The notes under the pieces: model-generated
Told to the model about the DNA's origin: nothing
What the model saw: only the letters and a program-made list of their open reading frames with translations
The model's database searches: none
Source of the DNA: Chryseolinea sp. H1M3-3
Lineage (GTDB): Bacteria > Bacteroidota > Bacteroidia > Cytophagales > Cyclobacteriaceae
Assembly (NCBI RefSeq): GCF_029360725.1
Contig: NZ_JARKMY010000009.1
Coordinates: 310,001-374,000, forward strand
Direction of reading: 5' to 3'
Length of the DNA stretch: 64,000 bases
Shown: positions 18,693 through 32,052 of the stretch, one piece after another
Numbering within the stretch: position 1 is the first letter of the stretch
Layout of the letters: each line of letters opens with the position of its first letter
Made by a program: the position numbers and the translations under genes

Positions 18693-21104
18693 TTAATCGC
18701 CTATTGGCGACAATTCAATCTTTACCCTTAGGTTTTCGCCCAGTAACGTAAATTCTCTAATCCATTCGGCAGAATGCCCTTCATACGTCGGGTTTGCCTT
18801 TGATATCTCAAAATATAAATTCTGACTTTTGTAAAGATTGGGAGACAAATTCAATTTAGACAACAAAGGGAACAGTCTGTTCAAACGTTCAATTCTCAGA
18901 TAGTTGTCCCCTTCCTGGGTGAAGCGTTTTAATTCCCGGATAATAGTCTCCCCTACTAAACGCTCGAGCCGGTCCGCATCCTCAATATTCAAACGCCATT
19001 TGACAAGCTCATTTGCTATGCGTTCTATTTGCCGGATATTGAGCCTTTCCAACAGAAACGACCGTGTTAAATCAGCATTGAGAATATATTCAAACGTGGT
19101 TTTATAAGCATTAGGAATGGGGGCATCATTATTAGCCAGCGCCATCACCAACGGGTAATCACGGTTGTAAATTCTGCGCAGCGAATTTTCAAGGTCACGC
19201 ATACTCTGGTAGGTAATTAAATCAAATACCTTTCGTTTCTCATCCTGGAATAATTGCCAGATTGTATACTTATCAGGACCAAAGTACATTTGCATTAATC
19301 CAATGATATCACCCAGGCGGGCTTCGTCAAATGCCTTTACAATCAAAGATTGCATTACATTAAATTTCTCCAGGGCCATATCAATGGAAATGTTTCCAAT
19401 GATATTGTGCTGGCCCATATAAATTACCGCAAAGGTAAATTTTTGCTCCGACCGTGTAACATTCGACTTAACGCGCGTAATTCCAATTACCAACTTCTGC
19501 TCACCGGCTTCCTTGCGAATGAAAATTTCGTTTTGTGTCGTGTAGTTAAAGACTGGAAATGATTCAGGATCTTCCTCAAAGATTGACGCCACAGCGTAGT
19601 GCATACCCACACGTTGCAAGTTAGTTTTCGATGGAATCACATATTTCCGATAAACCTCCTTTCCATTGCCGAGAGAAGGCACATTACTAGGCGCCAATTC
19701 TATGCGTTTTAAGAATTCCTCTTCCAGTCGAATTTCACTCACCTGACTTACAAGCTGCATGGCGCGACACGCATATTGCATGATTTGCGTTGTCTCTATT
19801 CCGGATAAGTCATCAAAGAACCAACCGCAGCTGGTATACATTAACATCGCATTTCGCTGAACCTCCATCATTCGCAAAACCCGGTTATGTTCTACTTCAA
19901 TGAAACAATGTTCTTTCAGAAACTTAGTGATGTTTTCTTCACTTCTATTCAAGATCACATGAATATATTCTTCCCTTGCGCGCCATGGATCTTTAAGGAA
20001 ATTTGACGTTTCCTTTACATAAATTGATATCAGTTCATCTCTCAACCAATCCAACGTCTCCCTTAGTGGTTTTCGCCACAATTGATGCCAGTTAGGTTTC
20101 CCTGAATTACAGCCGCAGTTGTCTCTCCAACGCTCGACGCCGTGTACACAACTCCATGAACTGCTCTCATGAATTTCCACTTCATATGTCGGCGGAAACT
20201 TGGAGAGAAATTCCGCATAGTTGGTAAGATGTGAGTGATTATGGCGTTCTATGTAGTCGAGGGCATATGCCAATGCCATATCACCGTGTTTATGATGATG
20301 GCCGTAGGTCTCGCCGTCTGTTGCAATATGAACTAACTGAGGCTCCACGGATTGATTGTCAAATCCATCCAACAAGCGATGGGCAAACTTCTTTCCGTCA
20401 TTTAATAACCCATCGAATGCCACCCCCTGAGAAATATCACCATCGTAAAAAAATAATGCGATGGTTTTTCCTGATTTCAAATTATAGAGATATGGCCTTC
20501 TGGTTTCTAACGTTTCAGTATTTACTGGTGTCCATGCAGCGCTACCTTTTAAACGGAATGCCTTTGCCTGGCGTGGTGCTAAAACTGTAAATTTAATTCC
20601 ATGCTTCGCCAACAATTCAAGTGACTCCACGTCGACTGCTGTTTCGGAAAGCCACATGCCCTCTGGCTTTCGCTTAAACCTGCTTTCAAAGTCAGCAATG
20701 CCCCAGATGATCTGCGTCTCCTTATCACGGGCGTTGGCCAAAGGCATAATCATGTGATTGTATACCTGTGCCATAGCCGAACCGTGGCCGTTAAAATTTT
20801 TTACACTTTCAACGTCTGCCTGAAGGATAGCCTGATAGGTTTCCGGGTCGTGCCCTTCCATCCATGAAAGAAGTGTTGGCCCGAAATTAAAACTGATTTT
20901 TGTGTAATTGCTGATGATGTTTTTTATGACGGACTTCTCATTCAAAATGCGGGAGGCCGTATTGGGCGCGTAGCATTCAGCGGAAATTCGTTCGTTCCAA
21001 TCGTGATAGGGATGTGCTGAATCCTGGACTTCTATCACTTCAAGCCAGGCATTTTCACGTGGGGGCTGATAAAAATGCCCATGAATACAAATATATTTTT
21101 CCAA
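18693..21104 (-). CDS. glycoside hydrolase family 57 protein with DUF3536
   Basis: 803 residues. The N-terminal half is a GH57 alpha-glucanase-type barrel: YICIHGHFYQPPREN at the start, GMWLSETAVD with the candidate nucleophile Glu154, HIATDGETYGHH with the candidate acid Asp263. The C-terminal half is DUF3536, typical of a GH57 subgroup found near glycogen genes. It has no signal peptide and should act in the cytoplasm on alpha-glucans, for example in glycogen trimming or branching. The start is TTG at 21104, giving the expected conserved N-terminus with no ATG closer. It lies downstream of glgB in the same direction, with a 168-base gap. Family certain; exact reaction not known. Confidence 0.88.
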   Translation of the reverse strand: MEKYICIHGHFYQPPRENAWLEVIEVQDSAHPYHDWNERISAECYAPNTASRILNEKSVIKNIISNYTKISFNFGPTLLSWMEGHDPETYQAILQADVESVKNFNGHGSAMAQVYNHMIMPLANARDKETQIIWGIADFESRFKRKPEGMWLSETAVDVESLELLAKHGIKFTVLAPRQAKAFRLKGSAAWTPVNTETLETRRPYLYNLKSGKTIALFFYDGDISQGVAFDGLLNDGKKFAHRLLDGFDNQSVEPQLVHIATDGETYGHHHKHGDMALAYALDYIERHNHSHLTNYAEFLSKFPPTYEVEIHESSSWSCVHGVERWRDNCGCNSGKPNWHQLWRKPLRETLDWLRDELISIYVKETSNFLKDPWRAREEYIHVILNRSEENITKFLKEHCFIEVEHNRVLRMMEVQRNAMLMYTSCGWFFDDLSGIETTQIMQYACRAMQLVSQVSEIRLEEEFLKRIELAPSNVPSLGNGKEVYRKYVIPSKTNLQRVGMHYAVASIFEEDPESFPVFNYTTQNEIFIRKEAGEQKLVIGITRVKSNVTRSEQKFTFAVIYMGQHNIIGNISIDMALEKFNVMQSLIVKAFDEARLGDIIGLMQMYFGPDKYTIWQLFQDEKRKVFDLITYQSMRDLENSLRRIYNRDYPLVMALANNDAPIPNAYKTTFEYILNADLTRSFLLERLNIRQIERIANELVKWRLNIEDADRLERLVGETIIRELKRFTQEGDNYLRIERLNRLFPLLSKLNLSPNLYKSQNLYFEISKANPTYEGHSAEWIREFTLLGENLRVKIELSPIGD

Positions 21105-21272: not shown

Positions 21273-23249
21273 CTATGTGCTTAATTCATTTAAGTCAAAT
21301 TCATTGATCTCTTTCTCGAGTTTAAATACGGATATTCCTAACGGCGGTAAAGTTAATGAAATGGAGAAATCCCTGCCATGATATTTTACGGGAGACGTCA
21401 TGACCGACGCCATATTCACGAGTCCGCTGCCACCGTACTTTTGGTCATCTGAATTAAATACTTCCATCCAGGTGCCCCGGTACGGAACACCTATGCGATA
21501 GTGTTGGCGGGTTTCAGGGGTAAAATTGCACACGACAATGAGCAGATCATCTTTTGTTTCTCCTTGACGTTGGAAGGCGATGACACTATTTTCATGATCG
21601 GCATAGTCAATCCATTCAAAACCCCGGTGTTCGAACTGGTGCTTATATAACGCGGGGTGCGACTTATAGAAGGTGTTTAGATCCCTTACCAATTTTTGAA
21701 CCCCGGAATGATAGTTATATTGAAGTAAATGCCATTCCAGGCTTCCATCGTGATTCCATTCGGAGGATTGGCCGAATTCACCTCCCATAAACAAAAGTTT
21801 GGATCCCGGATGCATGAACATATAGCCGAACATAAGCCTCAGATTGGCAAACTTGCGCCACTCATCGCCAGGCATTCGTCCCAGCAGTGATCCTTTGCCA
21901 TGCACGACTTCATCGTGAGATAACGGGAGCATGAAGTTTTCGGTAAAGGCGTACATAATGCTGAAGGTGATTGCATTTTGGTGATACTTCCTGAATACCG
22001 GATCCAGCTTAAAATATTTCAGCGTATCGTGCATCCAACCCATCATCCATTTTTGTCCAAACCCGAGTCCACCGAGGTACGTCGGCCGGGAGACACCACT
22101 CCAGGATGTCGATTCTTCTGCGATCGTAATTGCATCGGGAAATTGTTTATACACTACCTCATTCATTTCTTTCAGGAAGGTGATCGCCTCGATGTTTTCG
22201 TTGCCACCATATTCATTTGGAATCCATTCGCCAGCGTTGCGGGAATAATCCAGGTAAAGCATAGATGCAACGGCGTCTACACGCAAACCGTCGATGTGAT
22301 ATTTTTCTAACCAGAATAAAGCATTGCTAATAAGAAATGATCTTACCTCATTACGCCCATAATTAAAAATATAGCTCTTCCAATCAGGATGAAATCCTTT
22401 ACGGGAATCCTCATGTTCATATAAGTATGTCCCATCGAATTTGAAAAGGCCGTGCTCATCGCCTGGAAAATGCGAGGGCACCCAATCTAACAGTACACCA
22501 ATTCCGGCTCGATGAAAACAATCTATTAAATATTTAAAGTCTTCCGGGCTTCCATATCTGCTGGTAGGCGCGAAATATCCCGTGAGCTGATATCCCCATG
22601 AGCCGTAGAACGGATGCTCCATTAACGGAAGAAATTCTACATGCGTAAAACCCATATCGCTAACATATTGCACCAACTCGTTGGCCATTTCCGGATATGT
22701 CAGTGAACGATTTCCATCTTCCAGTTTTCGTTTCCATGAGCCATAATGCACTTCGTAAACAGAATATGGTTTGGGCTTCCCACTGACTTTTTTCCTTTCT
22801 TCAAGCCATGCGTCGTCTTTCCAATCATACTTTGAATCCCACACAATGGAAGCGGTTTTAGGAGGTGTTTCGCAATAGGAAGCAAAAGGATCTGATTTAA
22901 CCATGTATTCACCCGTGTTCGAATGAATGGCATATTTATATACTTCTCCATGGTTTATGTCGGAGAAGAAACCTTCCCAAATTCCAGAGCCATCCCATCG
23001 GGGATTTAACCGATGTTGCTTGTCTTGCCAGTGATTGAAATTACCCAGGATAGAAATTTCTTTGGCATTTGGCGCCCATACCGCAAAATATGTACCCGCA
23101 TACTCATTGGTATTGATTACGTGGGCACCAAGTTTTTCATAGAGCTTATAATGCTTGCCCGATTTGAATAAATAAATATCAAACTCTGTTAGCAAACTGA
23201 AGCCTTCAGAAATTGATGGTGTGGATGTTGAAGATGCTTTCTTTGCCAT
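21273..23249 (-). CDS. glgB: 1,4-alpha-glucan branching enzyme
   Basis: Makes alpha-1,6 branches in glycogen-like glucan. 658 residues: an N-terminal CBM48 domain (AVWAPNAKEISILGNFNHW, about 50-150), the GH13 barrel (about 170-540) and a C-terminal beta domain. Catalytic residues are all present: Asp325 in DGLRVDAVASM, Glu in TIAEESTSW, Asp in LSHDEVVHGKGS. GH13_9 landmarks VYEVHYGSW and LLDWVPSHFPGDEHGL are present. Start ATG 23249. The upstream TreS-maltokinase gene ends 60 bases before it, so it is likely in the same operon; branching follows GlgE-made linear glucan. Confidence 0.96.
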   Translation of the reverse strand: MAKKASSTSTPSISEGFSLLTEFDIYLFKSGKHYKLYEKLGAHVINTNEYAGTYFAVWAPNAKEISILGNFNHWQDKQHRLNPRWDGSGIWEGFFSDINHGEVYKYAIHSNTGEYMVKSDPFASYCETPPKTASIVWDSKYDWKDDAWLEERKKVSGKPKPYSVYEVHYGSWKRKLEDGNRSLTYPEMANELVQYVSDMGFTHVEFLPLMEHPFYGSWGYQLTGYFAPTSRYGSPEDFKYLIDCFHRAGIGVLLDWVPSHFPGDEHGLFKFDGTYLYEHEDSRKGFHPDWKSYIFNYGRNEVRSFLISNALFWLEKYHIDGLRVDAVASMLYLDYSRNAGEWIPNEYGGNENIEAITFLKEMNEVVYKQFPDAITIAEESTSWSGVSRPTYLGGLGFGQKWMMGWMHDTLKYFKLDPVFRKYHQNAITFSIMYAFTENFMLPLSHDEVVHGKGSLLGRMPGDEWRKFANLRLMFGYMFMHPGSKLLFMGGEFGQSSEWNHDGSLEWHLLQYNYHSGVQKLVRDLNTFYKSHPALYKHQFEHRGFEWIDYADHENSVIAFQRQGETKDDLLIVVCNFTPETRQHYRIGVPYRGTWMEVFNSDDQKYGGSGLVNMASVMTSPVKYHGRDFSISLTLPPLGISVFKLEKEINEFDLNELST

Positions 23250-23309: not shown

Positions 23310-26300
23310 TTATTTTTTCTTTCGCTCCTCTTTCTCCTCGTGATACCGTTTCATAATATAATGAATTCCCCTTAAAGGAATGATTGTCCAGTCAGGCCTT
23401 CCATTAAGTTCATATCCCAATTCATAGATTGCTTTTTCAAGCAGGAAGGTACGAATGAGCACGTCATCCTCCGCCGACAATGACACACCCATATTCATTC
23501 GCTCCATGTAGGCGCCCAGGTAAAAACGGCTTACATAATGTTGCCATTGTTCGGCCCAATTTTCTAAGAATTCGCGATCACGTTCGCGGTAATTTTCATT
23601 CAGTAAAATTTTACCGAAGGCGGCATAATGAATTGAACGCATCATTCCGGCCACGTCTTTAAGTGCACTTTTCTTCAACCTTCTTTCGCTAAAAGATAAG
23701 CCTGGTTCGCCTTCAAAATCGATGATAACAAAATCTTTTCCAGTAAACAAAACTTGTCCGAGATGGTAATCGCCGTGAATTCTGATCTTACTAGCTTTGA
23801 TCTTCAATTGGTATACTTCACTGAAACACTCCAGAATATCATCCTCGAGGTCCAGAACTTTTTTAGCAAACTCCTGCACTTCGGGTGGAAGCTTAGATAG
23901 GGTACTGTTCAACAAATTAAATCTGTCCTTCACCAATCTTCGCAACGATGAGTATAGTGAACGCTGGTAGTTCGCTGTAAAGTTTTCGGGCGCAAATGAC
24001 GGATCTGCTGAATTGGATGCTAATGCTAAATGCATTTCTGCGGTACGGGTACCCAGGCGTACCATTCGTTCATAAAACCCGCGGCCAATGAATTCCTGGA
24101 TGACATCCGGCGCGTCTTCAAACCTGATAGATGCTTTGTTGATCAGCTTAGGGAGTTTAATTGTCTTTGCCTTAGCCATTACACGTTCGTAGAATCTTCC
24201 AACAGAATCCACAGACATGGTCCATGCTTCACCTTGGTTTTCAACACGCTCCTGCAAAAGACCAAAAACGATAACCTTGCCGTCCTGATGGTATTCCACA
24301 CTGCCCGCATACCGGGGCGAGTTTCTGAAGGTCGTATGCTCAGACAAAAATCTAACAATCTCAAGTTCAGGATTGATTTCATGCTCCAGTTTCCTATAGA
24401 ATTTGAAAAAGTATTGATCGTTGAATATGATAGCCGTATTACTCTGATCTGCCTTTAGAATTTTAGAGTCGATTATTTTATTAACATCAATCTTGGCAAA
24501 TACACCACTATTAAATAACAACGTGCCGCCTTCATCATCTCTCAATTTCAACTCCTTACCCATACTTATAAACAGGAAGTCACGGAAATGTTTATCATAA
24601 CTGCTATCCATGATAAACCCGGCCTTGCCTTGAATTTCTGCGCGGCAGACCACACTTTGTACCGTATACTCTACACGCTCCATGATGCTGTCGGATGGAA
24701 GAAAAGCAAGGGGGAGAAAATATAACTCCGGCAAGCCTTGTGCATAGTGCACTTCAATGACGGAAAGGAAGTGTGTATCACCGTCGACCTTAAGGGAAAC
24801 GGCTTTCTGGATACTTACTTTACTTACCACTTTTGCCTTTCCTCCAAACCAGCGGCATTTCTTCATGAATGGCACCAGAATTTTTCTTTCGAGAAAACGC
24901 AGTTCATTGTAGTTGTCAAATAATTTTTCCCACGATACTTCAGTTTTTAATAAATGTAATTCCCCACTGGCTTCTTTTTCTTTTTTCTCAGGCACATCGG
25001 CCTGGAACCAGAAGTATCCATAAGGTCCGATGGTTATCGGGTAATCTCCATTCTCGACATTCAGGAAACGGTTTTGGCTAAAAACTTCAGTAATGTCGCA
25101 TCCCTTGTATTCCGAAAGATTGATGATGGTAGATTGAGAAAACTGAGATAAGTTAGCAACAACAATGATGCGTTGCTTTTCATAGGTTCTTACAAACGCC
25201 AGTACTTTGGCGTTTGTACTTTCTAAAAACTTCATCTCTCCGCGCCCAAATATGTTTAGTCGGTTGCGCATTGAAATGATGTTCTTCATCCACCATAAAA
25301 ATGAAGAGGGGTTTTCCTCCTGGGCAGCGACGTTTACAGTTTCATGTCGATAGGCTGGATCTGTAATGATGGGTAAATACAGGCGCTGCGGATTCGCTGT
25401 TGAGAATCCTGCATTTAAATTCATATCCCACTGCATGGGTGTACGCACGCCATATCTGTCGCCGAGGTACACATTGTCTCCCATTCCGATTTCATCGCCA
25501 TAGTATAACACCGGAGAGCCGGGCAATGAAAAAAGGATCGCATGGAGCAACTCTGCTTTTCTCCTGTCATTGTTCATCAATGGTGCCAGCCGGCGGCGAA
25601 TACCCATGTTGAATTTTGTATTGGCATCATTGGCATAGGCTTTAAAGAGGTAGTCCTTTTCCTCTTCCGTTACCATTTCAAGACCAAGCTCATCATGATT
25701 GCGTAAGAAGAGTGCCCACTGACTATTCGGAGGCGTTTCCGGCGTCTGCTCCATGATGTCGATGATTGGATAACTATCTTCTGTACGCAACGCCAGGAAC
25801 ATACGCGGCATTAAAGGATAGTTAAAGTTCATGTGGCATTCATGTCCTTCACCAAAATAATCGGCAGCGTCTTCCGGCCATAAATTTGCCTCTGCAATGA
25901 GTATTCTGTTTTTATAATTTTTATCGATGTGGGCACGCAGCCGTTTCAGGAACACGTGTGTCTGAGGAAGATTTTCACAACTCGTTCCCTCCGCTTCATA
26001 CAGGTAGGGCACAGAAGAAAGCCGAAAGCCGTCGACTCCGAGCTTCATCCAGAAATCAACAACTTTGATCAGTTCCAGTTGAACTTCGGCGTTGTCGAAA
26101 TTCAATTCAGGCTGGTGACGGAAAAACCTGTGCCAGTAATAAGCTTTCGCATCTGCATCCCATGTCCAATTGCTATTTTCTTCAGATGTGAAAATGACGC
26201 GTGCTTCTTTGTATTTTTCAGGCGTATCACTCCAAACATAAAAATCGCGATAACGGGTTCCTGGTTTTGCTTTGCGAGATCGCTTAAACCATGGATGTTG

Positions 26301-26639
26301 ATCAGACGTGTGATTTAAAATCAATTCGGTAATAACGCGCAGGCCCCTGCGATGAGCCTCTTTCAAGAATTGCTTTAGATCCGATAATGTGCCGTAATCA
26401 GGATGAACATCCATATGATCCACAACATCAAAGCCGTCATCTTTTAAGGGCGATGGGTAAAAAGGCAGCAGCCAAATAGTGTTGATGCCCAGGTCTTCCA
26501 GGTAGTCGAGTTTCTGAATCAAGCCCTGAAAATCTCCAATTCCATCAGCGTTGCTGTCAAAAAAAGCCCGCACCGATACTTCATAGATAATAGCATCTTT
26601 AAACCAAAGTGCGTCGTTGCTTTTAGGTGGTGTAGTCAT
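23310..26639 (-). CDS. TreS-maltokinase fusion with a defective TreS active site
   Basis: About 1109 residues. The N-terminal half (to about 560) is a GH13_16 trehalose-synthase-like domain; the C-terminal half (about 590-1105) is a Pep2/Mak maltokinase with RWFGGKA, HGDYHLGQ (catalytic Asp) and IIDFEGEP (metal-binding Asp). In the TreS half the nucleophile motif, normally GFRLDAVPYL, reads GFRLSSVPYL: Asp is replaced by Ser (codon TCT at 26016-26018). The general acid (LIAEANLWPED) and third Asp (LRNHDE) remain, and the loop normally LGDR(D/N)GVRTPMQW has Tyr at the variable position. Inference: maltose-trehalose isomerisation is probably lost, while maltose phosphorylation is kept. I chose ATG 26639, which shares one base with the glgE stop; a GTG at 26642 is also possible. 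Confidence 0.92.
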   Translation of the reverse strand: MTTPPKSNDALWFKDAIIYEVSVRAFFDSNADGIGDFQGLIQKLDYLEDLGINTIWLLPFYPSPLKDDGFDVVDHMDVHPDYGTLSDLKQFLKEAHRRGLRVITELILNHTSDQHPWFKRSRKAKPGTRYRDFYVWSDTPEKYKEARVIFTSEENSNWTWDADAKAYYWHRFFRHQPELNFDNAEVQLELIKVVDFWMKLGVDGFRLSSVPYLYEAEGTSCENLPQTHVFLKRLRAHIDKNYKNRILIAEANLWPEDAADYFGEGHECHMNFNYPLMPRMFLALRTEDSYPIIDIMEQTPETPPNSQWALFLRNHDELGLEMVTEEEKDYLFKAYANDANTKFNMGIRRRLAPLMNNDRRKAELLHAILFSLPGSPVLYYGDEIGMGDNVYLGDRYGVRTPMQWDMNLNAGFSTANPQRLYLPIITDPAYRHETVNVAAQEENPSSFLWWMKNIISMRNRLNIFGRGEMKFLESTNAKVLAFVRTYEKQRIIVVANLSQFSQSTIINLSEYKGCDITEVFSQNRFLNVENGDYPITIGPYGYFWFQADVPEKKEKEASGELHLLKTEVSWEKLFDNYNELRFLERKILVPFMKKCRWFGGKAKVVSKVSIQKAVSLKVDGDTHFLSVIEVHYAQGLPELYFLPLAFLPSDSIMERVEYTVQSVVCRAEIQGKAGFIMDSSYDKHFRDFLFISMGKELKLRDDEGGTLLFNSGVFAKIDVNKIIDSKILKADQSNTAIIFNDQYFFKFYRKLEHEINPELEIVRFLSEHTTFRNSPRYAGSVEYHQDGKVIVFGLLQERVENQGEAWTMSVDSVGRFYERVMAKAKTIKLPKLINKASIRFEDAPDVIQEFIGRGFYERMVRLGTRTAEMHLALASNSADPSFAPENFTANYQRSLYSSLRRLVKDRFNLLNSTLSKLPPEVQEFAKKVLDLEDDILECFSEVYQLKIKASKIRIHGDYHLGQVLFTGKDFVIIDFEGEPGLSFSERRLKKSALKDVAGMMRSIHYAAFGKILLNENYRERDREFLENWAEQWQHYVSRFYLGAYMERMNMGVSLSAEDDVLIRTFLLEKAIYELGYELNGRPDWTIIPLRGIHYIMKRYHEEKEERKKK

Positions 26640-28579
26640 CACATGAATGATTCGTGTACTTCTAATTTAAATAGGTGGAATGGCATCTTATAGGGATCAA
26701 GCTCAATATAATTCCATTCCTGAGTCCAGGTGTATTGTTCATCGGTAATAACATCATGAACTTTTACATTAACTCCACCATTAATTCGCAGCGTGCCTAA
26801 TGGAAGCTGCAGGTATCCGGATTGTCTTGTATTGGGGTCGAGGTTGACAACAACCAACATGATATTTGATAAATCATCGGTTGCTTTAAGATAAGCCAGC
26901 AGATTCTCATTCTCTATAAAACAAAACTGAAGATTCCAGGTTGACTGCAATGCCTTATTATTTTTTCTTGCCGCATTAACAAGGGCGATGATGTCAGTCA
27001 TCCGATTGGTCTTTTTCCAATCATGGTGTTTGACTTCGTATTTCTCTGAATTATAATATTCTTCTTTACCCTGCACGGGAATGTTATCATGCCATTCATA
27101 CGCAGGTCCATAGATTCCATAATTGGAAGCAAGCGTTGCCGCCAGCGCCAGTCGAATGATAAAAATATTTTCTCCCTGATATTGTAAATGATATGGCAGA
27201 ATATCAGGCGTATTTGGCCAGAAATTTGGCCTGAAATAATTTCGTGACGGACCGAACACCAATTCATTCATGTATTCTGTCAGCTCTTGTTTTGTTACAC
27301 GCCACGTGAAATAAGTATACGATTGCGTGAACCCGATCTTGGCCAGCGATGCCATAACTTTAGGACGCGTAAAAGCTTCTGCCAAAAAAATTATATCGGG
27401 ATATTCTTTGTTCACCTCATGTATTGCCCACTCCCAAAAAGGAATAGGTTTAGTATGTGGATTATCGACGCGAAAAATCTTAACGCCTTGTTCAATCCAA
27501 AAAGTGATCACGGATTTTAATTCATTCCATAGAGAAAGCCAATTCTCTGTTTCAAAATTAAAAGGATAAATGTCCTGATACTTCTTGGGTGGGTTTTCTG
27601 CGTACTGGATCGATCCATCGGGGCGTTGTTTAAACCATTCCGGATGATCCTTTACATAAGGATGATCGGGTGCGCACTGGAAAGCGATATCAAGTGCTAT
27701 ATCGATGTTGTGTTTCTTAGCTTCCAAAATCAACCGCCGGTAATCATCAAGGGTGCCCAGCGCCGGGAGAACAGATTCATGGCCCCCCTCATCACTTCCA
27801 ATCGCCCAGGGAGATCCAGGCTCGCCAGCTTCAGCCGTCACGTTGTTATTCTTTCCTTTACGATTCACTTTTCCGATGGGATGAATAGGCGGAAGATACA
27901 GCACATCAAACCCCATGGAAGCCACCCGTGGTAGTAGCCGGATTACATCATTGAAATTCCCATGTTCACCATGGAGAGAGGCTGATCTCGGAAAAAGTTC
28001 ATACCATGCGCTGAAATTTGCTTTATCATGTTCAGCAATTACTTTTAACTGCTTATGATAGGTATGCGCATGTTGTATTAGTGGATTGTTATGAACAACT
28101 GCAGCAAACTCCTGAGTCATCACATAGTCGACCGCCGAAGCATACTCAGCTTTGAGTTTTTTTGAAATAGTCTTGAGGCCAGCATTATTATTGGCAAGGT
28201 TTTGCAAAAAATGCGCACCTTCCTCTAACTCAAGGTGAACGTCTACGTGTGCATTTACCTTCTTCTTGAATCCGTCGTACCACGTATCAAAGTGATCAAT
28301 CCAGGCTTGCAGGGTGAATCGGTACAAACCTTTTTCTTCTACATAAAAAGACGCACGCCATTCATCATTCATGACGTGTTGCATTTCCTTTTCGTGCCAT
28401 TTCGCCTCGCCTTCTTTTTTGTACAACAGTCGGGCACGAATGTGATCATGCCCGTCTGTAAAAATATCCGCTGAGACATCAACACGTTCTCCTATCGTCC
28501 TTTTTGCTGGATATAACCCCTCGTCTACCTGCGGTTGAACATTTTCTATGATTACACGTGATTGTCCTTTTAACTCCAT
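26639..28579 (-). CDS. glgE: alpha-1,4-glucan:maltose-1-phosphate maltosyltransferase
   Basis: Transfers maltosyl units from maltose-1-phosphate to growing alpha-1,4-glucan. 646 residues, GH13_3: an N-terminal beta domain (DGHDHIRARLLYKKEGEAKWHE) and a barrel. Catalytic and diagnostic motifs are intact: FRVDNPHTKPIPFWEW (nucleophile Asp), IIFLAEAFTRPKVM (Glu), TPDILPYHL (third Asp), and the GlgE-type VLYLPPIHPIGKVNRKGKNN. It is cytoplasmic. Its ATG at 28579 directly abuts the stop of the amylase gene upstream, and its own TGA overlaps the ATG of the fusion gene, so the three are tightly coupled. Its substrate would come from the maltokinase half of the next gene. Confidence 0.96.
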   Translation of the reverse strand: MELKGQSRVIIENVQPQVDEGLYPAKRTIGERVDVSADIFTDGHDHIRARLLYKKEGEAKWHEKEMQHVMNDEWRASFYVEEKGLYRFTLQAWIDHFDTWYDGFKKKVNAHVDVHLELEEGAHFLQNLANNNAGLKTISKKLKAEYASAVDYVMTQEFAAVVHNNPLIQHAHTYHKQLKVIAEHDKANFSAWYELFPRSASLHGEHGNFNDVIRLLPRVASMGFDVLYLPPIHPIGKVNRKGKNNNVTAEAGEPGSPWAIGSDEGGHESVLPALGTLDDYRRLILEAKKHNIDIALDIAFQCAPDHPYVKDHPEWFKQRPDGSIQYAENPPKKYQDIYPFNFETENWLSLWNELKSVITFWIEQGVKIFRVDNPHTKPIPFWEWAIHEVNKEYPDIIFLAEAFTRPKVMASLAKIGFTQSYTYFTWRVTKQELTEYMNELVFGPSRNYFRPNFWPNTPDILPYHLQYQGENIFIIRLALAATLASNYGIYGPAYEWHDNIPVQGKEEYYNSEKYEVKHHDWKKTNRMTDIIALVNAARKNNKALQSTWNLQFCFIENENLLAYLKATDDLSNIMLVVVNLDPNTRQSGYLQLPLGTLRINGGVNVKVHDVITDEQYTWTQEWNYIELDPYKMPFHLFKLEVHESFM

Positions 28580-30172
28580 CTATTTTAAAATTACTGTAGT
28601 GTGAGCAGGAAGTTCTAATATTCCCTCCTTTAATATGTAGTTCTCGCTGGTGGCAAAAGCAACCTCTTTGAGATCGATGTTCTTTTCTTTGAGATTAATC
28701 GTTACTTCAACATCAGAAACATTGTGCATTACAAATTCTGTCTGGTCGTTAAATATTCTTTTAAAACTTACAATTTCAGAAACATCGATTCCGGAATATT
28801 CGATGTCTCCACGTGTCAGCGGCAGACTTGCATTCCGATACCGGATCATTCGTTTATAAAAATTTAACAGGGAATTTGGATCATCCTCTTGCAGTTTTGC
28901 GGGCACTACTGTTTCATCCGTGCTGAACGCCGGTTTCTCCCACGAGGTTTGAGCTGGGTCCTTTTGATCCATATCCCAAATAAAAGGCTCTCGCACGTAT
29001 GCATCAGGGCCAAAAAAATCTTCGTATGTTTTTAACTTGTCTCCCAGCATGCCAATTTCTTCGCCGTAATACAAATAAGGTGTTCCAGGTAAAGTCAGTA
29101 AAAGCGAAGCAGCCATCCGCGCCTTGTTTTGATCACCCTTCAACTCAGTTAACAAACGAGTCTGATCATGGTTCTTGACAAAAGTGGCGTCCAAATATTC
29201 TGAGGTAATCGATTTGTAGTAATCGCTGATGTCTTTGTAAGTTTTAACCAGTCCGATGGTATCTCTTTGAGCATTTGCCACATTTGTTATAGCGTAACCA
29301 AGATCAAAATTGAATAAGGAAGGAAGACCTTTGAGATAAGGCGCCACGGTCTTCGCATCCGACCATACCTCTCCTACCAGGTACACATCCGGTTTTATTT
29401 TTTCCATCTCCTCCTGAAACCAGACCCAAAAATCATGATTGTCTTTTGCTCTTTCATCCATGAAAATGTGGCGGGCAGCATCAATGCGAAAGCCATCAAC
29501 CTTAACATCGTTGAGCCAGAATCTTGCGATGTCTAGAATTTCTTCTTTCACCTTCGGATTATCCAGGTTCAAATCGGGGCAAAGACCATTGAAGTATCCG
29601 TAATAATGCTCGCTTAATGTATCTCCATTAACCGGGTGCCACTTGCGTATGTTATCCGAATCAAATGAAACAGGTTTTTTAAAAATCTGATTTCTGATGG
29701 AATCTTTATTTGCCCATACATAATAATCCCGGTAAGGATTGTCCTTTCCTTTTTGTGCTTCGAGAAACCACGGGTGCAAATTCCCAGTGTGATTGATTAC
29801 AAAATCAGTTATAACCTTTATACCACGCTTATGCGCTTCATCAATAAATATTTTGAAATCTGCCAACGTTCCGTAATCAGGGTCAATATTTTTATAGTCG
29901 ATAACGTGGTACTTGTGATAAGTATCTGAAGGCATGATAGGCATCAGCCATATTCCGTTTATCCCAAGCTCTTTCAGATAATCCAACTTGCTTGTAAGTC
30001 CCCGGAAATCTCCTTTGCCATTGCCGTCGCCGTCTGCAAAAGACATAACGAAGATTTCATATTTTACACCGTAAGGCCATTCTGCTACAGTCGATTGATT
30101 TGTTCTTTTACAGGAAAAGGTTGCCGCGCAAATCAGTAAGGCGCTTATGAAAGTTGTCGGCTTCAAATGCAC
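28580..30172 (-). CDS. GH13 alpha-amylase-family lipoprotein
   Basis: 530 residues with an N-terminal lipoprotein signal (LLICAATFSC, lipidated Cys near residue 21). The GH13 barrel has all catalytic residues: GFRIDAARHIFM (Asp), LVGEVWSD (Glu), FVKNHDQTR (Asp), plus YYGEEIGMLGDK. It resembles oligo-glucan-cleaving or neopullulanase-like amylases and would act in the periplasm or at the outer membrane. The start is GTG at 30172, 4 bases after the stop of the upstream amylase gene. It is part of the glgE operon, where it may release maltose for the maltokinase. Exact bond specificity is not readable. Confidence 0.88.
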   Translation of the reverse strand: MHLKPTTFISALLICAATFSCKRTNQSTVAEWPYGVKYEIFVMSFADGDGNGKGDFRGLTSKLDYLKELGINGIWLMPIMPSDTYHKYHVIDYKNIDPDYGTLADFKIFIDEAHKRGIKVITDFVINHTGNLHPWFLEAQKGKDNPYRDYYVWANKDSIRNQIFKKPVSFDSDNIRKWHPVNGDTLSEHYYGYFNGLCPDLNLDNPKVKEEILDIARFWLNDVKVDGFRIDAARHIFMDERAKDNHDFWVWFQEEMEKIKPDVYLVGEVWSDAKTVAPYLKGLPSLFNFDLGYAITNVANAQRDTIGLVKTYKDISDYYKSITSEYLDATFVKNHDQTRLLTELKGDQNKARMAASLLLTLPGTPYLYYGEEIGMLGDKLKTYEDFFGPDAYVREPFIWDMDQKDPAQTSWEKPAFSTDETVVPAKLQEDDPNSLLNFYKRMIRYRNASLPLTRGDIEYSGIDVSEIVSFKRIFNDQTEFVMHNVSDVEVTINLKEKNIDLKEVAFATSENYILKEGILELPAHTTVILK

Positions 30173-30176
30173 AAGG

Positions 30177-31976
30177 TTATTTGATTTTAAAGATATATGA
30201 ACTGTAAGGTTTGCAATTCAACTCGAATAAAAAATCCTTGTTGAATCCTACTTCTGCTTCCCTCCATAATAAATCACGGGCGATATAGGCGCCGGATGGA
30301 TCGAGGCCCAGGGTGGCGATGGCATCCTGTGAAAGTTGAACTTTAATAGGCTGGTTTTTTGCGTTGAAACTATTGACAATGAGCAATCGCTCTTCGCCGG
30401 CAAAACGAATGAATGCATGTACTTTATTATCGAAGTTACCTGCGGCAATATTGAATGCGGTCAAATCAAGATAACCTCCCTGATTGATCGCTGGATTTTT
30501 ACTTGCTAAATTTAACAAGTCACTATAAAACTGGCGAAGTTGTTTCTGCTCCATGCTCAAGGAATCACCGTTGAAGGCACCACCATTCATCCACTTCTGG
30601 TGTTCCGGCATGCCCCAATAATCGAAGATCGTGGTACGTCCATCATCACTTTGAAACCCTTCAGCTCCAGCGCCTGGCTCACCCACTTCCTGTCCACAAT
30701 AAATCATCACTGGCCCTCGGTCTATCGTCGCGCTGATCACCATGGCGGGTGCAGCTTTCCACATGTCGCCTGCAAAGAATTTCGACGCGATACGTTGCTC
30801 ATCGTGGTTCTCCAGGAAATGGAGCATGTTGTCATTGATGCCGGAAAGGCTTTGATAAATATCATGGATATCCGTTGTACTTCGTTCACCATTTATTAAC
30901 AACCGAAGTGTATCATATAGCTGAACTTTATCATACAGAAAATCAAACTTTCCGTTGGTGATGTAATTCTTATATTCACCAGGGTTATAAATCTCTGCAA
31001 TAAAAAGAATCTCAGGATTAATTTCTTTTATCTGGGGAATGACCCAATTCCAAAACTCAACGGGCACCATTTCGGCCATGTCGCATCTAAAGCCATCTAC
31101 TTTTTTATTTGTCCAAAATACAAGGATGTCTTTCATTTTTGTCCAGGTATCAGGAATAGGATCAAAATTTTTTTTGTTCCCGTTTAAAACGTCAACCCCA
31201 TAGTTCAGCTTCACTGTTTCAAACCAGTCTGTTATTTTGGGACTGCCATCAAAGACGTTGTTGCCGGTAGCCTTCGCGGGAGTTTCTTCAAACTTTCCAT
31301 CTTTTGTTGGAAAACTATTTCCCCGCCCCAGTGATTCATAGCCACGAGGTACTTGAAATGATTGACCGAGTAAATAATAAAAGTTGTTGTTAGGACTGAA
31401 GGATAAAGAGTCGTCATCATTTTCTCCAAGATCTTTAATGCCCGCAGGTTTGGCATCTGATTTATATTTGCGCGCTACATGGTTGGGCACAAAATCAATA
31501 ATGACCTTCATATCTTCCGCATGGGTGCGGCTGATCAGCTGTTGAAATTCTTTCATTCGGGCCGTGACACTCATGGCTAAATCCGGATCTACATCATAGT
31601 AGTCTTTGATAGCATAAGGAGATCCTGCTCTTCCTTTGACAACATCTGCATCGTCCAATGGAATTCCGTAAGAAGTATAATCAGTGAGCGTGGCATGTTC
31701 GATGATACCTGTATACCAGATATGAGAAACTCCCATCTCCTTAATGGACTTTAGCGCCTTCGAGTTTATGTCGTTAAACTTCCCAACGCCGTTTTCGTCT
31801 CGCGTGCCATAAGGAGTATTATCTGATTTTTTATTTCCAAAGAGTCTTGGCAACAATTGATAAATCACAATTTTTCCTGATGATTTTTCCACCATAGCTA
31901 CCGGAGGGATTTTTTCCATTGGCTTACTACAAGAAGTCAGTAAACCTGCCATGAATAACACCAAAATTTTCCTCAT
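30177..31976 (-). CDS. GH13 alpha-amylase-family lipoprotein, second copy
   Basis: 600 residues from ATG 31976, giving a typical lipoprotein signal (MRKILVLFMAGLLTSC). An upstream ATG at 32042 would put 22 charged residues before the signal and is unlikely. Catalytic motifs are present: KVDGFRCDMAEMVP (Asp), EILFIAEIYNPGEY (Glu), FLENHDEQR (Asp). It differs clearly from the neighbouring amylase and has a different substrate-binding loop region. Envelope-located, in the glgE operon, first of the catalytic genes. Likely to cleave starch- or glycogen-derived maltodextrins; the product pattern is unknown. Confidence 0.86.
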   Translation of the reverse strand: MRKILVLFMAGLLTSCSKPMEKIPPVAMVEKSSGKIVIYQLLPRLFGNKKSDNTPYGTRDENGVGKFNDINSKALKSIKEMGVSHIWYTGIIEHATLTDYTSYGIPLDDADVVKGRAGSPYAIKDYYDVDPDLAMSVTARMKEFQQLISRTHAEDMKVIIDFVPNHVARKYKSDAKPAGIKDLGENDDDSLSFSPNNNFYYLLGQSFQVPRGYESLGRGNSFPTKDGKFEETPAKATGNNVFDGSPKITDWFETVKLNYGVDVLNGNKKNFDPIPDTWTKMKDILVFWTNKKVDGFRCDMAEMVPVEFWNWVIPQIKEINPEILFIAEIYNPGEYKNYITNGKFDFLYDKVQLYDTLRLLINGERSTTDIHDIYQSLSGINDNMLHFLENHDEQRIASKFFAGDMWKAAPAMVISATIDRGPVMIYCGQEVGEPGAGAEGFQSDDGRTTIFDYWGMPEHQKWMNGGAFNGDSLSMEQKQLRQFYSDLLNLASKNPAINQGGYLDLTAFNIAAGNFDNKVHAFIRFAGEERLLIVNSFNAKNQPIKVQLSQDAIATLGLDPSGAYIARDLLWREAEVGFNKDFLFELNCKPYSSYIFKIK

Positions 31977-32052
31977 AATGGCTGAATTTAAAAAGAAAAG
32001 GCAGCTTTTTGTTAAGCTCCGAGACATTATCGTTTGCGGCAACTGTTTAGAC

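Follow-up and report, generated by a model that had tools for sequence, protein, structure and literature searches.

A trehalose synthase half without its catalytic nucleophile, probably kept as a platform for the fused maltokinase, in a clade of Cyclobacteriaceae

Introduction

Fusions of a trehalose synthase (TreS) to a maltokinase (Mak or Pep2) are described from Pseudomonas aeruginosa PAO1 and Estrella lausannensis (PMC8084333, PMC11046441), and a gene with the same domain order is the subject of this report; it lies in a stretch of 64,000 nucleotides of contig NZ_JARKMY010000009.1 (positions 310,001 to 374,000) of Chryseolinea sp. H1M3-3, hereafter the window. In P. aeruginosa, glgE, treS/pep2 and glgB stand in one cluster, as they do in the window, and it is already known that the fusion of that species takes maltose supplied without trehalose, by way of MalQ (PMC8084333). 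The TreS half is active in both described fusions, at a low level in that of P. aeruginosa, whereas in the window protein and its relatives the catalytic nucleophile of this glycoside hydrolase family 13 (GH13) half is gone from a whole clade, most members of which also have altered +1 residues.

In the Mycobacterium smegmatis TreS:Pep2 complex (5jy7), the core is a tetramer of TreS that carries Pep2 on and around the C-terminal beta-sandwich; some elements belong both to the interface and to the ATP site, and the nearest active sites are ~53 Angstrom apart (PMC6509496). As is proposed below for the window protein, TreS is a maltokinase platform in M. smegmatis, with docking that includes the C-terminal beta-sandwich, but the partners are two separate proteins, the TreS has its catalytic residues, and the association is of moderate affinity and proposed to be transient (PMC6509496), whereas the two halves are fused here. 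A table in one review marks some archaeal isoforms as inactive (PMC11046441). A TreS half without its nucleophile is not described in the titles and abstract openings of the open-access literature searched, a search that mostly did not extend to full texts. Among other GH13-fold proteins, rBAT and 4F2hc (SLC3A1/SLC3A2), the heavy chains of membrane transporters, act as supporting subunits of a partner protein, a role that the TreS half may resemble; the sequence matches of the window protein in the PDB include rBAT. The plant isoamylase ISA2 is a non-catalytic GH13 member that acts as a regulatory subunit in alpha-glucan metabolism; it belongs to the debranching enzyme family and is a separate polypeptide, whereas the TreS-type half considered here is fused to its partner.

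Here, we propose, with a probability that we put at roughly 60%, that the TreS half turned into a pseudoenzyme in the clade ancestor and has been kept as a platform, non-catalytic and probably responsive to sugar, on which an active maltokinase serves a GlgE pathway fed by maltose. That the fusion would no longer isomerise trehalose but would still use ATP to phosphorylate maltose, giving the maltose 1-phosphate that GlgE needs, is well supported by the sequence comparisons; that the dead half may bind sugar, serve as a platform for the kinase and pass its state to it is less certain.

Loss of the nucleophile in the TreS half

The fusion gene occupies 23310..26642 on the minus strand and encodes 1110 amino acids when read from the GTG at 26642, although the ATG at 26639, which gives a gene of 23310-26639 and has one base in common with the glgE stop codon, is more likely to be its start. 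Residues are numbered from the GTG (V1), a numbering that equals that of Deinococcus radiodurans TreS at the nucleophile. The product matches TIGR02456, the NCBIfam trehalose synthase profile (837 bits, cut-off 678), and TIGR02457 (438 bits, cut-off 375), together with Pfam Alpha-amylase, Malt_amylase_C and Mak_N_cap. The TreS half, GH13_16-like, comprises residues 11-548 (24999..26612, minus strand; TIGR02456 match 13-547) and is matched by sequence to the PDB TreS chains 5x7u, 5h2t and 3zo9. A predicted model of the whole fusion (mean predicted local distance difference test score, pLDDT, 82; predicted template modelling score, pTM, 0.60) supports a TreS-like fold for this half, in that the first 28 of the 50 matches shown from a Foldseek search were chains of trehalose synthase, either by itself or complexed. 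Because of the pTM and of low-confidence regions (residues 340-352, 382-390 and 392-440 among others), the placement of domains in the model was not used. The maltokinase half, residues 575-1097 (23352..24920, minus strand), carries the TIGR02457 profile, the Mak_N_cap and both kinase motifs, HGDYHLGQ (23754..23777) and DFEGEP (23703..23720).

An earlier note on this DNA, made from its letters, had claimed that the GH13 nucleophile Asp is replaced by Ser while the other catalytic residues keep their spacing, that a conserved loop carries Tyr and that the kinase motifs are intact, and on each of these points it was right. Residue 209 is Ser, encoded by TCT at 26016..26018 on the minus strand; Glu251, the acid/base position (25890..25892), lies 42 residues on, and Asp317, the transition-state stabiliser position (25692..25694), 108 residues on. 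The TreS catalytic triad (Asp209, Glu251 and Asp319 in D. radiodurans numbering) is thus incomplete, with Ser as the nucleophile residue and the other two present. The loop GDRYGVRTPMQW carries Tyr397 (25452..25454), where all 119 TreS-maltokinases aligned from outside the clade have Asp or Asn. Residue 210 is also Ser (TCT, 26013..26015) and is Ala in all 119 of the others; with two codons departing from the usual D-A, Ser209 cannot be put down to one read error.

To place this loss, overlapping samples of the family (118 and then 390 genomes), genus (6), order (390) and phylum (395) were searched, all except the genus sample being drawn from larger groups. In the larger family sample, 123 of the 390 genomes had a match at E 1e-250 or better, and 93 of these had a match of at least 60% identity, 19 of which also list a second match of 47-52%; outside the family, no listed match in the order and phylum samples exceeded 55% identity. 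A scan of named genomes (80 loci kept) yielded four clade members, labelled Cyclobacteriaceae (two), Bacteroidetes and Chryseolinea. The alignment held 89 distinct clade sequences and 119 other TreS-maltokinases after removal of duplicates (L044, L292, L317 and L321, which by length lie on the contigs of L009, L038, L039 and L040; L268 and L280 had identical cores); the partial genes G998 and G1004 and five loci with no frame (L112, L113, L114, L116 and L117) were left out, and one alignment excluded frames of <1000 or >1300 amino acids. Residue counts given below over 90 clade rows include one duplicate, L292.

At the nucleophile position the 89 clade sequences have Pro (36), Ala (28), Ser (17) or Gly (8) and never Asp, which is present in 119/119 TreS-maltokinases outside the clade. 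In the samples searched, this clade is confined to one GTDB family, Cyclobacteriaceae, where it spans nine genus labels, and trees built from the full protein, from its TreS half and from its Mak half all recover it as monophyletic (support 1.0, 0.974 and 0.986, respectively). Its sister group consists of 55 intact fusions; the twelve named per tree belong to the family and order samples, to Salinimicrobium and to a Taibaiella record. Over the whole tree, Fitch parsimony counts 22 changes at residue 209, namely one loss of Asp and, for the rest, exchanges among Pro, Ala, Ser and Gly, with no reversal. Asp was lost once, in the clade ancestor, and was never regained, and residue 209 is limited to small uncharged residues. 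This variation rules out a Ser that is kept at the position for one specific new role. An alignment of relatives, which the earlier note had suggested as a check, shows a clade-wide and ancestral rather than recent loss, of which Ser itself is not the conserved state. That the Ser is a sequencing error, or an early stage of pseudogenisation in one strain, has practically no probability left, as it is contradicted by a loss common to 89/89 members, by the change of two codons and by dN/dS values (below) far under 1. The note's further reading, in which TreS catalysis is lost and the gene survives as a maltokinase with a retained, non-catalytic TreS half, is supported by this comparison; as that note proposed, the half may be a scaffold, a maltose-binding domain or an allosteric one. 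Under the genus label g36, three genomes have an intact operonic fusion (L273-L275) and three the dead form (L270-L272).

Selection on the two halves

The ratio of nonsynonymous to synonymous substitution rates (dN/dS) was 0.004, 0.012, 0.025 and 0.027 for the dead TreS half in four pairs of clade members, and 0.013, 0.016, 0.050 and 0.038 for the kinase half of the same genes; the synonymous rate (dS) was unusable in two further pairs. For two pairs of intact fusions the values were 0.022 and 0.046 (TreS) and 0.082 and 0.119 (kinase), dS being unusable in one further pair. Strong purifying selection acts on the dead TreS half, which is not decaying.

In the seven genomes that hold both copies and were compared, divergence of the TreS half was similar in the dead and intact forms (0.153 versus 0.148), whereas that of the kinase half was 0.202 in the dead-form gene versus 0.452 in the intact one, and the ratio of TreS to Mak divergence (TreS/Mak) was higher for the dead form in 21/21 genome pairs. 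The median TreS/Mak ratio was 0.76 for the clade versus 0.24-0.36, by group, for intact fusions, operonic or not. A relaxed kinase half in the orphan intact copy was ruled out as the cause of this contrast since intact fusions elsewhere have like ratios (orphan median 0.35), and operon position was ruled out since operonic intact copies have a median of 0.31. When the dead/intact divergence ratio was taken by region, with bootstrap intervals, it was lowest in the linker (0.17; 0.04-0.33), followed by the kinase N-cap (0.31; 0.19-0.44), the rest of the N-lobe (0.37; 0.27-0.49), the beta-sandwich (0.56; 0.39-0.85) and the kinase C-lobe (0.58; 0.48-0.71), while that of S8 was 0.92 (0.40-1.99). 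Either the kinase and its link to the platform are under tighter constraint, or the whole gene is, with the barrel relaxed relative to it.

The sugar pocket and a proposed mechanism

Residue roles, and the residue lists used in tests, were taken from the description of D. radiodurans TreS (4tvu; PMC4257617). The -1 residues of that enzyme, Asp63, His106, Arg207, Glu251, His318, Asp319 and Arg398, are identical in the window protein; it has Asp209 and Ala210 and no kinase half, whereas the window protein has Ser-Ser and a fused kinase (PMC4257617). Throughout the 90 clade rows, the -1 residues D68, H111, R207, H316, D317 and R396 are invariant, as are the gate residues R148, E223 and N253; among them, Arg207 (26022..26024) is the salt-bridge partner of the lost Asp (PMC4257617). 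The acid/base E251 is Asp in two rows (L277 and L285) and E318 is Ser in three (L270-L272). In D. radiodurans TreS, E320A, the equivalent of a change at E318, had no detectable activity, and the same is reported for alanine variants of the +1 residues Tyr213, Glu320 and Glu324 as a set (PMC4257617). Since E251D and E318S occur in places, catalytic functions have been lost further there while the sugar-contact shell stays.

The window protein has all three of these +1 residues (D. radiodurans numbering); with Ile150 and Tyr213 (26004..26006) retained, its own +1 changes are Tyr397 and Ser210, the latter at a +1 subsite residue of the D. radiodurans enzyme (PMC4257617). Across the clade, residue 213 is Phe in 83/90 rows, residue 210 is Ser or Asn in 89/90, and the Glu324 equivalent is Asp in 16/90. 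Neither Asp nor Asn occurs at residue 397, which is Phe in 61 rows, Tyr in 15, His in nine, Gln in three, Ala in one and Ser in one. In a set of 24, conservation of the +1 site fell below expectation (P = 0.02). These altered +1 residues, the near-constant Ser or Asn at 210 and the invariant Asp317 would suit a half whose chemistry is changed and not lost, for example with Ser210 or an external nucleophile acting in the cavity left by the Asp. We consider this improbable, given that residue 209 varies among four residues and that the acid/base and E318 are replaced in the members named above; to our knowledge, no GH13 enzyme works through a Ser210-type or external nucleophile.

In the sugar-responsive platform that we favor, the -1 pocket of the dead half would still bind a glucose-containing sugar (maltose or the end of a glucan), and the dead half would be the platform on which the kinase assembles. 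The state of the dead half would reach the kinase by way of the C-terminal beta-sandwich, linker and N-terminal kinase cap, so that maltokinase activity would be coupled to sugar supply, with the maltose coming from alpha-glucan breakdown by the operon amylases and GH57 and not from trehalose. A sugar-binding platform coupled to the kinase is preferred because the regions of raised constraint (beta-sandwich, linker and kinase) include the contact zone of M. smegmatis TreS:Pep2, a comparison made at the level of whole regions. More tentatively, and with less confidence than in the platform as such, we suggest that a GH13 domain was converted once, in one family, to a sugar-sensing regulator of its fused maltokinase, which would make the GlgE pathway one that maltose both feeds and gates, free of trehalose, and that constraint moved along with this conversion from catalysis to a signal-carrying beta-sandwich, linker and kinase N-lobe.

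Sources of maltose and trehalose

The dead form occupies the glgE operon slot, since GlgE and GlgB adjoin it and not the intact copies of the same genomes. GlgE adjoins the fusion in 26 of 28 clade loci besides the window (17/17 of a first set and 9/11 of a second), and GlgB was found in all 17 (truncated in L220, where the contig ends) and all 11 (as two frames in L270), whereas in genomes with both forms GlgE is absent beside the intact copies (8 loci, two of these from short contigs), as is any close GlgB, apart from a 21% match in L194. In family members with the intact form only, the order glgE-fusion-glgB was seen in 6/6 and then in 4/6 more.

The genome of the window has an intact TreS-maltokinase of its own (L002, G000:C6:165014-168289), 51% identical and with GFRLDAVPYL, without glgE or glgB within the 19.9 kb taken around it (L002/L192). 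It also has a TreS-like gene without a kinase (L003, G000:C12, 1492-3126), 40% identical, with GFRMDAVPHM and 603 bits against the TIGR02456 cut-off of 678, as well as OtsA, TreY and MalQ; GlgC was not found in this genome. L003 is followed by a frame of 187 amino acids that is membrane-spanning in appearance.

A gene census covered 21 clade genomes (of the 93) and six intact-only controls. Eight of the 21 also hold an intact fusion and 13 have the dead form only. OtsA was detected in 8/8 genomes with both copies, 2/13 with the dead form only and 6/6 controls; for TreY these counts were 7/8, 0/13 and 6/6, for MalQ 6/8, 0/13 and 6/6, and for GlgC 1/8, 3/13 and 0/6. In nine of the 13 dead-form-only genomes (one of them, G024, only 89% complete), none of OtsA, TreY, GlgC or an intact TreS scored over cut-off, TreT, TreP and uptake lying outside the search, and the sole entry to maltose 1-phosphate that we can name there would be the maltokinase half. 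MalQ is ruled out as the maltose source in dead-form-only genomes, with no match in 13/13, and a supply of ADP-glucose by GlgC-GlgA is ruled out as a general substitute, with GlgC in 4/27 genomes and GlgA over cut-off in 0/27. Open frames of ~270-316 amino acids that match just the N-terminal half of GlgA, below cut-off, were seen in 26/27 of the surveyed genomes. It is possible that the GH57 of the operon replaces MalQ; its Pontibacter counterpart, PoGH57 (DUF3536, with HGHFY and ETYGHH), is suggested to have 4-alpha-glucanotransferase or hydrolytic action (PMC11206854). The maltose-fed, trehalose-independent GlgE route put forward in the earlier note is thus plausible, judging from gene content, for the 13 of 21 genomes with the dead form only, but it does not follow for the organism of the window taken alone, which has the intact fusion, the TreS-like gene, OtsA, TreY and MalQ.

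The presence of both copies in 8/21 genomes, with no GlgE beside the intact one in those eight loci, would also fit a division of labor in which the operon copy is the kinase and the orphan copy the isomerase, the dead half having gained no new function. We regard this as very improbable, even more so than changed chemistry, as 13/21 genomes have no intact copy and the orphan kinase half evolves at the rate normal for intact fusions and is not relaxed. The name attached to TIGR02456 (maltose alpha-D-glucosyltransferase), a profile that the window protein matches over cut-off, is suggested to be wrong for the whole clade, and we suggest that trehalose should not be linked to glycogen through this gene when these bacteria are modeled from their genomes.

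Weighing a sugar-responsive against a purely structural platform

The main rival to the sugar-responsive platform is a purely structural one, in which the dead half just folds, oligomerises and holds the kinase, and the pocket residues persist as supports of the barrel. It would be modeled well by M. smegmatis, where the TreS tetramer core carries Pep2 largely on the C-terminal beta-sandwich (PMC6509496), and the raised constraint seen here falls on the beta-sandwich, linker and kinase. We nevertheless hold it to be the less likely of the two platforms, although far more likely than changed chemistry or a division of labor: D68, H111, R396 and R207, whose salt-bridge partner is gone, are invariant in 90/90 rows, and residue 209 has taken only four small residues despite ~21 changes.

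Several observations weigh against a sugar-responsive role and its trehalose-free setting. Retention of the seven listed -1 residues does not go beyond the background of conserved positions (P = 0.10, set of 24), a result that is also in favor of the structural alternative, and since this retention is not significant, sugar binding is put forward as no more than what the pocket suggests. The barrel core (residues 11-312) is, if anything, slightly less constrained than that of the intact copy (ratio 1.20; 0.90-1.60), and for the S7 lid the ratio is 2.84, the interval (0.63-12.75) being very wide. Level of expression could account for the tighter constraint on the kinase half, in comparison with which the barrel would be relaxed. 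Since an intact TreS-Mak, OtsA and TreY are present, trehalose metabolism is not lost in the organism of the window. In three dead-form-only genomes (and in 4/4 of those with GlgC overall), a GlgA/GlgM-like frame, below cut-off, stands beside GlgC, so that maltose 1-phosphate could be made from ADP-glucose in these three. With regard to the partner enzymes themselves, activation of Pep2 by TreS was a modest rate enhancement in M. tuberculosis, but M. smegmatis TreS was virtually without effect on its Pep2 or slightly depressed it (PMC6509496). Whether TreS does more than feed maltose to its kinase partner is unsettled between these results (PMC6509496), and a fusion in which evolution took away the isomerase step but left everything else in place would allow a platform or allosteric role to be tested alone.

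The exceptional loci count on the same side, as glgE does not adjoin the fusion in L272 and L277, and L272 has altered kinase motifs (G601D, K602H, D958N and E977Q). L277 has Q963R, and a single listed position of the kinase motifs is changed in L297 and likewise in L323; these motifs are intact in nearly all clade members. Decay of the kinase in the two loci without an adjacent glgE is suggestive only, because L271, which has glgE, shows nearly as many motif departures (17/178) as L272 (22/168). Higher or similar counts in L329, L322 and L326 belong to genes cut at contig ends.

Neighboring genes of the operon

The minus-strand order in the window is GH13b, GH13a, glgE, fusion, glgB and GH57, with glgE, the fusion and glgB adjacent as in a GlgE-pathway operon. 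The maltosyltransferase gene glgE (26639..28579), directly upstream of the fusion, matches Pfam GlgE_dom_N_S and GLGE_C and has FRVDN and LAEAF intact; in the first set of clade loci, the acid motif is present in 17/17 and FRVDN in 16/17 (not in L213). Directly downstream, after a gap of 60 bases, the branching enzyme gene glgB (21273..23249) matches the NCBIfam GlgB profile over cut-off, and the GH57 gene (18693..21104), with DUF3536 and the motifs HGHFY and ETYGHH, resembles the Pontibacter enzyme (PMC11206854). GH57 stands at the operon end in 27/28 clade loci (16 of the first 17 and all 11 of the second set), while GH13b was found in 16 and GH13a in seven of the first 17, the misses of GH57 and GH13b being at contig ends. 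GH13a (28580..30172) is SusG-like, with no family match over cut-off among those shown, and GH13b (30177..32042) is amylase-like, with weak PDB matches to amylases and neopullulanase; both, like the other genes named, are on the minus strand, and both have a lipoprotein-like N-terminus and the catalytic Asp (GFRID and GFRCD, respectively). The relatives of GH13b in the 16 clade loci all keep its three catalytic motifs, and 15 of them fit a loose lipoprotein pattern.

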